A program made the translations under genes and the position numbers. The notes beneath the pieces were generated by a model, which ran no database searches, had not been told where the DNA came from, and worked only from the letters and a program-made list of their open reading frames with translations. Below are positions 16,025-20,116 of a DNA stretch of 64,000 bases, one piece after another; the first letter of the stretch is position 1; every line of letters starts with the position of its first letter. The DNA is from Pseudomonas koreensis (GTDB lineage Bacteria > Pseudomonadota > Gammaproteobacteria > Pseudomonadales > Pseudomonadaceae). The stretch lies in the NCBI RefSeq assembly GCF_024169245.1, contig NZ_JALJWP010000001.1, forward strand, positions 1,861,501 through 1,925,500. The letters are read 5' to 3'.

Positions 16025-17071
16025 ATGGAAAATAATCAGCCGATCATCGTCAAGCGCGTCAAGCGCATTGCCGCCGGGCACCACGGCGGGGCGTGGAAAA
16101 TCGCCTTCGCCGACTTTGCCACGGCGATGATGGCGTTCTTCCTGGTGCTGTGGCTGCTGTCCACCGCCACGCCAGAACAGAAGATCGCCATCGCCGGTTA
16201 TTTCAAGGACCCGGTCGGCTTTTCCGAAAGCGGCACGCCGTACATCATCGATCTCGGTGGCACGCCGACCTTGGCGCCGGAAAACACCCTCAACCCGGAA
16301 GTGAAATCGCAGCCGCAACCGGACAAGGTCACGGTCGACACTGAACAGGTGGAAGGCATGGCCGAGCAGGTGGAGAAGGAGCGTCTCGAACTGCTGCTGC
16401 AAGAACTGCAGAACAAGGTCGACGAAAACCCGCAGCTGCAGAAATTCAAGGATCAGATCCTCTTCGAAATCACTCCGAACGGCTTGCGCATCCAGATCAT
16501 GGACGCCGAAAACCGGCCGATGTTCGACTCCGGTTCCGCGCGCCTGAAACCGTACTTCGAAGACATCCTGCTGGCCATGGCCGACACCATCAAAGCGGTG
16601 CCGAACAAGATCAGCATCAGCGGCCACACCGACGCCAAGCCATACATCGGCACTGGCGATTACGGCAACTGGGAGCTCTCGGCCAACCGCGCAAACGCGG
16701 CACGTCGCGCGCTGGTCGCTGGCAGTTATCCGGATGCACAGGTGGCGCGGGTGGTCGGTTATGCCTCCTCGGCGTTGTTCGACCGGGAAAACCCGTTCAA
16801 CCCGGTGAACCGCAGGATCGACATTGTCGTGCTGACCAAAAAAGCCCAGGCGGCGATTGAAGGTGCGCAGGGTCCTGAGGCGGCGAAGCCGGCGGATCAG
16901 GGTCAGAACGGTGCTGCTCCGGCAGCCCCGGTTGATCCGAATGCGTTGCCGGCGGACAGGCAGCCGGTGCCGGCGCATGAGTTGCGCGAACGCTTGAATC
17001 TGTTCGATGACGCCGCGCCGAAGCCGGCTGAGCCGGGTGGGGCCGCGCCAGCGCCTGCGCCGAAGCAGTAA
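16025..17071 (+). CDS. motB: Flagellar stator protein MotB
   Basis: Peptidoglycan-anchored stator subunit, 348 residues. A single TM near residues 28-48 contains the proton-binding aspartate D30 in AFADFATAMMAFFLVLW. An OmpA/MotB peptidoglycan-binding domain occupies about residues 155-275, with ISGHTDAKPY, NWELSANRANAARRAL and NRRIDIVVL. The tail is Pro/Ala-rich and low in complexity. The proton-type TM sequence matches the motAB rather than the motCD set of pseudomonads. Confidence 0.96.
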   Translation: MENNQPIIVKRVKRIAAGHHGGAWKIAFADFATAMMAFFLVLWLLSTATPEQKIAIAGYFKDPVGFSESGTPYIIDLGGTPTLAPENTLNPEVKSQPQPDKVTVDTEQVEGMAEQVEKERLELLLQELQNKVDENPQLQKFKDQILFEITPNGLRIQIMDAENRPMFDSGSARLKPYFEDILLAMADTIKAVPNKISISGHTDAKPYIGTGDYGNWELSANRANAARRALVAGSYPDAQVARVVGYASSALFDRENPFNPVNRRIDIVVLTKKAQAAIEGAQGPEAAKPADQGQNGAAPAAPVDPNALPADRQPVPAHELRERLNLFDDAAPKPAEPGGAAPAPAPKQ

Positions 17072-17110: not shown

Positions 17111-17155
17111 GGATTTTTTTTCGGCTTGAGAGTTGTGTTGCCAGACAGACCTCTG

Positions 17156-17305
17156 CCCCTCACCCCAGCCCTCTCCCGAGGGAGAGGGAGCCGATTTTCC
17201 GGGGGGCCAAAACCTGAGTTCGACTGAGTAATTTCAAGTCGGCGTTATTCTTGAACGCGACACGGTCAGTCCCCTCTCCCTCTGGGAGAGGGCTAGGGTG
17301 AGGGG
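17156..17305. repeat. MITE-like element, single unit
   Basis: Same palindromic ends as the element at 6540-6848 (CCCCTCACCCCAGCCCTCTC on the left, GAGAGGGCTAGGGTGAGGGG on the right) around a diverged, unduplicated core. It lies between the motB terminator and the stop codon of the TIR gene, i.e. at the downstream border of the caspase-TIR cassette. Confidence 0.85.
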
Positions 17306-17326
17306 CCTTTCGAAAGTGACGACGTT

Positions 17327-17812
17327 CTAGAACCCGCGACGAATCCGGTTCTTCAGCTGTTCATGAAACATCTCTGCATCGCGCTTGTAAGCCCCTTTCA
17401 CCGAGTCGCTGAACGAGTCCAGTGTGATCGAGCGCTGGTTCGACACCTCATCCCGATACGCATCGATGAAAAAATCCAGATCACTGGCCGTGCTCAGCTT
17501 CGGCCACTTGTCCAGGTAGATCGGCAGTTCGGCCGGCCCGGTTTTGAACGTACAGATCCGCCGGTTACTGATCGTCGCCTCGCCAATTTCAAATGGTACC
17601 CACCACGACAGCGCGGTCTTCTCCGACACCACCGCCAGCAAGTGCGTGCACTCGGTGATGTTGCGGGTGATCACTCCGGTAATGTCATCGGTGGTTTGCG
17701 ATTCCGGGTCGAGGACATCAAGGTAAGTCCTGATCTTCGCCTGGGTCAGACGGGTATTGATGGCGATCGCATGCGCGCGATCCAGGTGGCGGTAGCTGAT
17801 AAAGACTGGCAT
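17327..17812 (-). CDS. TIR-domain protein, probable NAD-processing immune sensor
   Basis: A 161-residue stand-alone TIR domain. The start strand PVFISYRHLDR is typical (xxFISYxxxD). The W-x3-E motif at W71-E75 (SWWVPFEIGEA) supplies the glutamate that is catalytic in NAD-cleaving or cyclising TIRs. The final helices (SFSDSVKGAYKRDAEMFHEQLK) complete the fold. There is no membrane segment or repeat domain. Its ATG overlaps the TGA of the caspase-like gene (TGATG), so the two are translationally coupled. Family knowledge: bacterial TIRs of this shape make cyclic-ADP-ribose signals for a partner effector. That the partner here is the adjacent protease is inference. Confidence 0.88.
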   Translation of the reverse strand: MPVFISYRHLDRAHAIAINTRLTQAKIRTYLDVLDPESQTTDDITGVITRNITECTHLLAVVSEKTALSWWVPFEIGEATISNRRICTFKTGPAELPIYLDKWPKLSTASDLDFFIDAYRDEVSNQRSITLDSFSDSVKGAYKRDAEMFHEQLKNRIRRGF

Positions 17813-18771
17813 CAGAAATGTCCTTTGAGGGCGAGTTCGCGGTAATAGGCGCCGAGTGCCGTCAGGCGGCAGCCGGTCGAATGAATGGCGGCGTAATACA
17901 TGTGCTCGGCGTCGACCGGCTCGATCAGGCTGTGGCGGTTGCACTTCTGCAACTGGGCGAAAACCTCGCCATGTTCTGGCACGAACGCTTTTTCAGTGGG
18001 CTCATAACTGGGGTCGAGGGGGAACACCGATTCGGCTTCGGCGAACCAGTCCGGCAATTTGCGCAGGATTTGCTTGGGGATCAGCGGCGAGACTTCCCGC
18101 AGGGAAATGAACTGCGACACATTGGTCTTGAACACCGGGCGCTGTTCCCAGGCACCGAGAGCGTTATCGACGAAGGAATACAGACTGCCGGGAGTGATCC
18201 TGCCGAGGATGTTCGCTGCGCCGCCATGCAGCGCTTGCAGGAGCAGGCCGGTGAACACACCGTGCTGCACGCCCTCCATCGCCGGCTCGGCTTTTTTGCA
18301 GGCGGTCAGGATCGTCATGCCTTGGCTGACCATGCTGCTTTCGCTGCGCAAGGCGCGGACTTCGCCGGCTGAACCGCTCTGGCAGCAGTCGAGGATGATC
18401 ACCTTGTTTTTGATCCGCGTGGCTTTGTCCGCCCAGTTGAGGATGTCGCTGATGCGGATGCCGTCCTTAGCGTTGCGGTAATCCTGCGCGATCAACATGC
18501 CTTCGTCAGTGTCGGCATCGAAACCGCCATGGCCGGCGAAGTACAGCAAAGCCACGTTGCAATCCCCGGAAAACAGTTCGCGTATCTGGTCTTCGAGCTT
18601 TTCCCGGCTGAGATAATCCTCGGCGGACGTCAACACGACATTCTTGAAGTTGGGGTCGCCATTGGCGTTGGTTTTCAGTACCGAGGCCATGGCCATGGCG
18701 TCGTTGCAACAGCCGCTCAGCCCGGAAATATGCGCATAGTCATTGATGCCGATAAACAGTGCCTTGCGCAT
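17812..18771 (-). CDS. Caspase-like (clan CD, C14) protease paired with the TIR gene
   Basis: A 319-residue protein. The caspase fold occupies about residues 1-215. It opens with KALFIGINDYAHISGLSGCCNDA, and the catalytic dyad is His81 (LLYFAGHGGFD) and Cys130 (ILDCCQSGSAGE). Residues 235-319 form an extra C-terminal region ending EPVDAEHMYYAAIHSTGCRLTALG, plausibly the ligand-sensing or substrate part; I do not recognise it. It overlaps the TIR gene by 1 bp. The ribosome site is weak (GGTGG), and an upstream 33-codon frame ends 2 bp before the start. The pair resembles the TIR/caspase-like arrangement I recall from type IV Thoeris anti-phage systems. Intact active sites argue for a working protease. 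Confidence 0.87.
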   Translation of the reverse strand: MRKALFIGINDYAHISGLSGCCNDAMAMASVLKTNANGDPNFKNVVLTSAEDYLSREKLEDQIRELFSGDCNVALLYFAGHGGFDADTDEGMLIAQDYRNAKDGIRISDILNWADKATRIKNKVIILDCCQSGSAGEVRALRSESSMVSQGMTILTACKKAEPAMEGVQHGVFTGLLLQALHGGAANILGRITPGSLYSFVDNALGAWEQRPVFKTNVSQFISLREVSPLIPKQILRKLPDWFAEAESVFPLDPSYEPTEKAFVPEHGEVFAQLQKCNRHSLIEPVDAEHMYYAAIHSTGCRLTALGAYYRELALKGHF

Positions 18772-18773
18772 GG

Positions 18774-18875
18774 TTACACCACCGTGAGCAGGCTGTTCGC
18801 GCTGACGATTCTGTGCGGATTACACACATGGGCGATACGCGACGATTGGCTGATGAATGAATGACAGCTTTGCAT
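18774..18875 (-). CDS. Possible 33-aa leader ORF upstream of the caspase-like gene
   Basis: A 33-codon frame (starts MQSCHSFISQSS, ends SLLTVV) with a much better ribosome site (AGAGGA, 5 bases from the ATG) than the protease gene itself. Its TAA lies 2 bp before the protease ATG, a spacing typical of translational coupling. No homology is recognised. It could be a leader peptide, a small third component, or chance. Confidence 0.4.
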   Translation of the reverse strand: MQSCHSFISQSSRIAHVCNPHRIVSANSLLTVV

Positions 18876-18917
18876 TGGATTCCTCTGAGATCGCGGTATG
18901 CGAAGGAGGAAACGAAT

Positions 18918-18994
18918 GTAGGCCGCTGGCAAAGACCTACAAGGTCTGCGCGACAAAACAGAAAGGTCCTGCGAGCAGTCGCGCAAAAGCCTAC
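18918..18994. repeat. Nested inverted-repeat element upstream of the caspase-TIR cassette
   Basis: The outer arms are GTAGGC at 18918-18923 and GCCTAC at 18989-18994. An inner perfect 8-bp repeat is TGCGCGAC (18947-18954) and GTCGCGCA (18978-18985), and a small palindrome GACCTACAAGGTC lies at 18934-18946. It differs in sequence from the three REP families of the window. Apart from this and the small ORF, the 313-bp gap 18772-19084 shows nothing I can name. Confidence 0.55.
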
Positions 18995-19084
18995 AGAAGA
19001 AGCTGATGTTTAAAAGGCAGAGGCGTGAGTCAGATGCAGTCCGACAACCGGCAACCCATGGCGAAGGGCTGCCGGCGCGACTGT

Positions 19085-20116
19085 TTAATAGCCGTTTTCA
19101 GGCAGGCTGGCGATGATCGAGCGGTAGCTGTTCATCCGCTGCTGCTGGATGCGGCCGTCTTCAAGGGCCTTGAGCAACGCGCAACCCGGTTCACGGTCAT
19201 GCTTGCAGTCGCGGAAACGGCAAGTGCCGAGCAGGTCGTCGAACTCGATGAAACCGGCTTCGACGTCGGCGCGGCTGACGTGGCCGAGACCGAATTCGCG
19301 GATGCCCGGGGAGTCGATCAGTTCGCCGCCGCCGGGGAAGTGGAACAGGCGCGCGGTGGTGGTGGTGTGCGTGCCCTGGCCGGACAGCTCGGATAACGGC
19401 CCGACACGGGTTTCGACCTCCGGCAGCAGGCTGTTGACCAGCGACGATTTGCCGACGCCGGACTGGCCGACGAATACGCTGATGCGCCCGTCGAGCTGCT
19501 GCTGCAACTGTTCCATGCCGTTGCCGTGGTGGGCGGACACTTCCAGCACCGGATAACCCAGCGTGCGGTACACCGCCAGCAACGCGTTCAGCGCCGGGGC
19601 GTTCTGCTCGTCGATCAAGTCGAATTTGTTCAACAGCAGAAGCGGGCGGATACCAGCGTGTTCGGCGGCGACCAGATAACGGTCGATCAGGTTGGCGTGG
19701 GGCTCGGGCAGCGGCGCGAAAACGATGACGATCATGTCGACGTTGGCAGCAACCGGCTTGAGCTGGCCACGGCTGTCGGGGCGGCACAGTTCGGTGCTGC
19801 GCGGCAGTTGCGCGACGATCACGCCGATGCCCTGGTTGCCGGCGCGCCAGACGACTTTGTCGCCGGTGACCAGCGCCGGCAGGTTGGCGCGCAAGTGGCA
19901 GCGGAACACTTGTCCTGCGAGTTCGCCGTCGACAGCCTCGACTTCGACCTGCACACCGAAGTGGGCGATCACCAGGCCGTGTTGTTCAGGACCAAGGTCG
20001 CCGCCCTCGAGGGCTTCGACCGCCGAGGACTCGCGTTTGGCGGCGCGTGCGGCGCGCTCGCCCTGGATCTTTTCGATGCGCCAGTTTTGACGACGATTGA
20101 GTTGGCGTTTGGCCAT
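19085..20116 (-). CDS. rsgA: Ribosome small-subunit biogenesis GTPase RsgA
   Basis: Circularly permuted GTPase that assists late 30S maturation; 343 residues, normal length. An N-terminal basic extension and OB fold (about residues 45-115) are followed by G4 LLLNKFDL, then G1 [13 protein letters not shown] and G3 DSPGIREFG, in the permuted order diagnostic of the family. The C-terminal zinc knuckle is [14 protein letters not shown]. It is divergent from orn. Confidence 0.96.

Follow-up and report, generated by a model that had tools for sequence, protein, structure and literature searches.

The locus between motB and rsgA in this Pseudomonas koreensis DNA (the window, 64,000 nucleotides in all) raises the question of whether a caspase-like protease gene and a TIR gene found there form a complete immune system or part of a larger one. 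An earlier note on this DNA had read the pair as a candidate two-gene abortive-infection system of type IV Thoeris-like logic. We propose that the window holds an immune operon that pairs TIR and caspase as type IV Thoeris does and from which one of two TIR genes is missing, a reading that we put at a probability of roughly two in three.

The gene pair itself is as the note described it. The protease carries the motifs GHGG (residues 80-83) and DCCQSG (residues 128-133) in the window translation, which hold His81 and Cys130, and matches PF00656 (Pfam; E = 3.5e-19). The TIR protein, hereafter T2, carries WVPFE at residues 71-75, with W71 and E75, and matches TIR_2 (PF13676; E = 1.1e-11). Stop and start codons of the two genes share one base (TGATG), and motB and rsgA were both found on the flanks where the note had placed them (Table 1). 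The predicted T2 model has a TIR fold (pLDDT 84.4), and the His/Cys dyad read from the caspase sequence falls within a predicted caspase fold. Structure matches of the caspase model (VIA list) span residues 1-229 at most; in the comparison with MALT1 paracaspase and metacaspase structures, the C-terminal part (from ~230) lies outside the aligned ranges shown. A sequence search of the PDB matched the caspase to metacaspases alone and the TIR protein only weakly. No SIR2 or SLOG family matched the caspase or T2 in Pfam at E ≤ 1.

Table 1. Features of the caspase-T2 cassette and its surroundings in the window
Feature	Position	Strand	Remarks
motB	16025..17071	+	One edge of the site
Dispersed MITE-like repeat	17155-17306		23-nt inverted ends, 96% complementary; outside the cassette
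TIR protein T2, 161 aa	17327..17812	-	W71xxxE75; start overlaps caspase stop by one base
Caspase-like protease, 319 aa	17812..18771	-	Core ~1-228 (His81, Cys130); C-terminal part ~229-319 conserved
T1 remnant, 33 codons in frame	18774-18875	-	Alignment to intact T1 of relatives; frames and lengths
Conserved leader, rsgA to operon	18876..19084	-	25-sequence alignment
rsgA	19085..20116	-	Other edge of the site

Type IV Thoeris is reportedly defined by a TIR protein with a catalytic glutamate and a protease with a His/Cys pair. The type IV Thoeris study is said to be that of Rousset et al. (2025, Science 387:510). The window shares with type IV Thoeris a TIR gene and a caspase-like protease gene in one predicted operon, with the catalytic glutamate in the former and His/Cys in the latter. 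According to PMC12847820, the TIR product N7-cADPR activates the caspase-like protease; the type is also named in PMC13373217. Unlike type IV Thoeris, the full Pseudomonas form contains a pair of TIR genes that belong to separate Pfam families, and the window has lost the upstream one. The type IV Thoeris-like logic put forward in the note would stand as the best reading of the TIR-caspase pair, but its completeness does not. Among reference models, NF047832 (caspase, EACC1-associated) aligns over caspase domain residues 3-205 at 99.9 bits, under its cut-off of 140, so that the protein is not assigned to that family; no type IV Thoeris model, if NCBIfam holds one, matched there at E ≤ 1. The PADLOC-DB library of 2023, which is older than type IV Thoeris, gave partial alignments of the caspase to its "caspase" model (68.8 bits; E = 1.2e-19) and of the TIR protein to its ThsB model (up to 36.8 bits). 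Thoeris effectors can be served by several TIR genes, and the two-ThsB form of type I Thoeris likewise joins one effector to two TIR proteins. Its effector degrades NAD, whereas here the effector is a caspase, and here the loss of one TIR gene is natural and recurrent. A check for type I Thoeris at the window locus found no SIR2-SLOG ThsA; the neighbors are rsgA and motB.

Neighbor typing with HMMs revealed that the usual Pseudomonas content of the interval in orn-rsgA-[ ]-motB-motA is a ThsB-type TIR gene (T1), then the caspase gene, and then the TIR_2-type gene T2; P. mandelii RIT-562 and P. jessenii DSM 17150 are examples of this three-gene form. T1 encodes ~135 aa, and the copy in locus L045 matches ThsB_TIR (PF08937; 56 bits). 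Among 72 distinct caspase loci of Pseudomonas adjoining rsgA, it is intact in 63 (61 script calls plus L014 and L053, which have full-strength T1 HMM scores and no full-length ATG start; L177, with a broken caspase frame, is left out of the set), reduced to a short remnant in eight, and absent from one. At least one of the two TIR genes accompanies the caspase in 71 of these loci (T2 in 70, T1 only in one); the remaining locus has neither. The window belongs to the remnant class. Its T1 frame, unnoticed earlier, retains the original start and stop, the latter 2 nt before the caspase start, and alignment to relatives places the start region directly against the end region, with ~300 bases gone. 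Caspase-then-T2 order, once offered as a distinguishing feature, arose because the upstream TIR gene was lost.

The remnants share a common architecture. They comprise 33 codons in four loci (L002, which is the window, L003, L004, and L073), 26 in L005, 23 in L175, 55 in P. umsongensis (L020/L086), and 47 in P. anatoliensis (L046). Each of the five lengths is in frame, and all eight loci keep the T1 start and have the caspase ATG 2 nt after the stop; across the 71 loci with an upstream frame, the spacing is either 2 nt (59 loci) or 3 nt (12 loci). With random frames, the chance of five in-frame outcomes out of five is (1/3)^5, or ~0.004 (0.012 with four events); the 26-codon remnant may derive from the 33-codon one by later trimming. 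For 57 loci with caspase and T2, T1 loss takes five changes on a quick rsgA tree, many of whose forks are weak, and its starred branches force four. These patterns show in-frame deletion of T1 in the window clade and elsewhere, some four or five times in all. In-frame remnants that stop beside the caspase start also point to translational coupling of the caspase to the T1 frame, and the remnant frame probably survives because of that coupling. Neither a pairing of two TIR genes with a caspase nor the rsgA-motB site was described anywhere in the literature that we searched, a search outside of which most subscription papers fell.

Upstream of the operon, the leader is conserved among relatives; the 5' region to which the note had pointed belongs to it, and positions 18890-19085 are single copy in the genome. 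Reading by eye, we found a candidate promoter, TTGTAG-N16-TACATT, at 18942-18915; a sigma-70 consensus scan gave no promoter match and no terminator excess, and Rfam returned three matches only, all far under gathering scores. On the 3' side of the cassette, the MITE-like element that the note had described does exist. It has dozens of dispersed relatives in the genome (117 matches listed, half matches and reverse matches included), and a similar element, judged by eye, lies in a cassette-free junction (L167). We therefore rejected it as a component of a mobile cassette.

Loss of T1 was not followed by decay of the genes that remain. Across five T1-deleted species of the window clade, median dN/dS was 0.085 for the caspase and 0.045 for T2 (10 pairs each), with 0.007 for rsgA; in 11 chosen T1-intact relatives, values were 0.147 for the caspase and 0.085 for T2, and 0.088 for T1 in 10 of them. 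Ratios this low indicate that purifying selection still acts on caspase and T2 after T1 has been deleted in this clade. An alternative hypothesis is that T1 is essential, for example with T1 sensing and T2 cyclizing in the manner of S. aureus ThsB1/ThsB2, and that what the window retains is a silenced operon on the way to being lost. According to PMC12578639, the S. aureus type I system (ThsA-B1-B2) needs both TIR proteins, and by that precedent T1 loss might disable the system. T1-like TIR genes are moreover near-universal outside Pseudomonas: among the matches listed, 42 of 43 loci (12 opened plasmid or phage-collection records, L088, and L094-L123, with neighbors typed by HMMs built here) have one in the caspase stretch, within 60 nt by best hit in 40, so that a caspase with T2 alone is unusual. 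The exception, L109, starts near a contig end. T2-like TIR genes exceed 100 bits in 12 of the 43 among the matches listed. Against an essential T1 stand the low caspase and T2 ratios of the five T1-deleted species, the retention of the T2 glutamate and the caspase His/Cys in T1-deleted loci, and the in-frame lengths of all the remnants, and we regard it as unlikely. The upstream thsB of the B. cereus MSX-D12 type I system is dispensable, according to PMC7272460, and the window data favor this pattern over that of S. aureus.

Catalytic residues track the presence of a partner. The T2 glutamate is present in all 109 aligned rows with a caspase in the same stretch, 93 with T1 and 16 without (some genomes are represented more than once, a few of the TIR matches are weak, and one further row, L119, is a gap), and in none of 28 rows, from 27 genomes, without a caspase, where Leu, Gln, Ser, Ala, or Gly replaces it. 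With repeats partly removed, the counts are 95/95 and 0/27. On the T2 tree, caspase loss together with glutamate loss amounts to two changes; few independent events lie behind the pattern, and a sister-pair test has two independent pairs only, too few for significance. His and Cys are both kept in 146 of 149 caspase loci (repeats included). One broken second copy accounts for two of the exceptions (L093 and L176); the third, L174, carries C130F and is the only one of the 149 without any TIR gene in its stretch, a single case. The T2 glutamate and the caspase cysteine are thus lost where the partner is missing. We infer that the catalytic activity of T2 works on behalf of the caspase and that T1 is dispensable. 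The partner-loss rule fails for T1, since solo T1 genes keep their glutamate in 3/3 cases. Two proteins with changed active-site residues count against our explanation: P0230, a P. lini T2 homologue with Lys for the catalytic glutamate (Glu in 119 of 120 T2 homologues among the matches listed), and P0111, a database caspase with Asn for His.

Genomes with T2 and no family caspase suggest a further alternative, that T2 is an accessory (a regulator or adaptor) and not the messenger source, the caspase answering a signal made elsewhere. They make up 27 of the 65 T2 genomes (one, G007, weakly matches another caspase-like protein). Solo T2 lies beside rsgA in 25 of the 27, separated from it by other genes in L142 and L143, with motB on the far side in 26; L138 holds no motB. 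One extra gene in L142 encodes a 456-aa acetylornithine-type aminotransferase, leaving no evident alternative effector beside T2 there, and an extra 287-aa protein has no Pfam match. Median dN/dS of solo T2 is 0.25 (133 pairs from 22 of the 27 loci; the other five, in which the start pattern was not recognized, were set aside), and its C-terminal tail, which ends in [IL]RRGF, is conserved in the 22 aligned. Persistence in the same place, under constraint and lacking the glutamate, suggests that T2 has some noncatalytic use, as an accessory would. However, the glutamate is invariant in the aligned rows where a caspase accompanies T2, and the sole TIR-less caspase has lost its catalytic Cys, making an accessory role for T2 quite unlikely.

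The caspase may bind a T2 product through its C-terminal part. Identities between caspases fall into two groups, around 73% and around 90% (48 loci with three genes plus rsgA), and in 11 of 1,128 pairs both TIR proteins are ≥90% identical with caspases below 78%. Alignment columns 281-320 remain 90 to 97% identical even between the two diverged alleles, and the C-terminal part has invariant columns throughout the aligned family; it is thus a family trait and not, as had been suggested, a distinguishing feature of the window protease. Such conservation fits a shared ligand or contact. Returning to the reading of the window as a T1-deleted operon, we suggest, by analogy with type IV Thoeris, that T2 senses infection and converts NAD to a nucleotide messenger, probably one that releases the caspase. 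We infer that this messenger would be bound by the C-terminal part of the caspase; the released protease would then cut cell proteins and abort the infection. T1 would be an extra, dispensable sensor or cyclase.

Full-length caspases of this family occur on plasmids and across several phyla. The query matched 68 plasmid records (in 42, a single place accounted for at least 80% of the query) and two phage-collection records, and 12 of these 70 were opened for neighbor typing; a genome-contig search added further relatives (best 80 of at least 504 confirmed). Within Pseudomonas, the family caspase is present in 49 of 398 genomes (E ≤ 1e-80). In a sample of 298 genomes, the caspase query matched 45 at E ≤ 1e-5, five of them weakly only (6.1e-6 to 1.7e-8; G007, G022, G029, G159, and G286), and T1 and T2 matched 37 and 65, respectively (E ≤ 1e-10). 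T1 stands alone at the site in three genomes (L150-L152) and the caspase in one (L174), a genome that gave no match to T1 or T2 at any other place (E ≤ 1e-10). T1, caspase, and T2 are all absent from 20 cassette-free junctions from the closest rsgA relatives (L154-L173), of which eight have 78 to 148 bp between matched ends, one has 337 bp, ten hold 1.2 to 2.7 kb of other DNA, and one shows no motB. These loci take 16 changes on the quick rsgA tree, of which starred branches force only 4. The cassette is patchy, unlike a housekeeping locus. It might still be argued that these genes act in stress-induced cell death or have some other housekeeping function and not one in phage defense, given their fixed chromosomal place by core genes, with rsgA and motB instead of mobile-element genes as flanks in the window. 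Presence in so few genomes, the number of changes (even if few are forced), and relatives on plasmids and in several phyla make this very unlikely. The proposal of the earlier note, a type IV Thoeris system complete with two genes in reversed order, has both genes and their catalytic residues in its favor, but an in-frame T1 remnant at the expected place and the prevalence of intact T1 among related loci render it highly improbable.

Several related arrangements were seen along the way. Genome G105, which has a full operon, carries the broken second caspase copy and a T2 gene on another contig (L176, L093). A more distant T1a-caspase system (caspase 47 to 52% identical) occurs in four Pseudomonas genomes (L178, L179, L180, and L197) and accompanies the motB-rsgA system in two of them (G251 and G269). 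A fourth T1-like TIR gene (G183; 33% identical) lies off-site, adjoining a protein with a TPR-S (sensor) domain (L153:4989-6703), and possibly belongs to a different TIR system. On plasmids, third genes lie beside caspase-TIR pairs (L035:5002-5283, L043:4984-5265, L037:4960-5448, and L032:3282-3602): an RyR-like gene in P. aeruginosa (20.1 bits, under the Pfam cut-off) and, by resemblance, in Rhodococcus, and a gene whose protein has no Pfam match in Bacillus pBS72, with a Methylorubrum one similar by eye.

A fuller account can be offered tentatively, as possible rather than established: a two-sensor caspase operon has been dismantled at one site, where T2 alone would make the messenger, T1 would be a disposable sensor whose in-frame stub serves as a coupling leader, and T2 without a caspase would survive catalytically dead in a new role, probably through its C-terminal tail. 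The natural variants at this one site (T1 with caspase and T2, caspase with T2, T2 alone, T1 alone, caspase alone, and empty) are ready material on the working of multi-sensor Thoeris. Comparison among them suggests which TIR gene of the pair can be spared, and brings to light a recurring TIR protein without a catalytic glutamate at rsgA-motB (27 Pseudomonas genomes; L134-L149 and L182-L192). This natural variation ties the catalytic residue of a TIR protein to the presence of its caspase effector.
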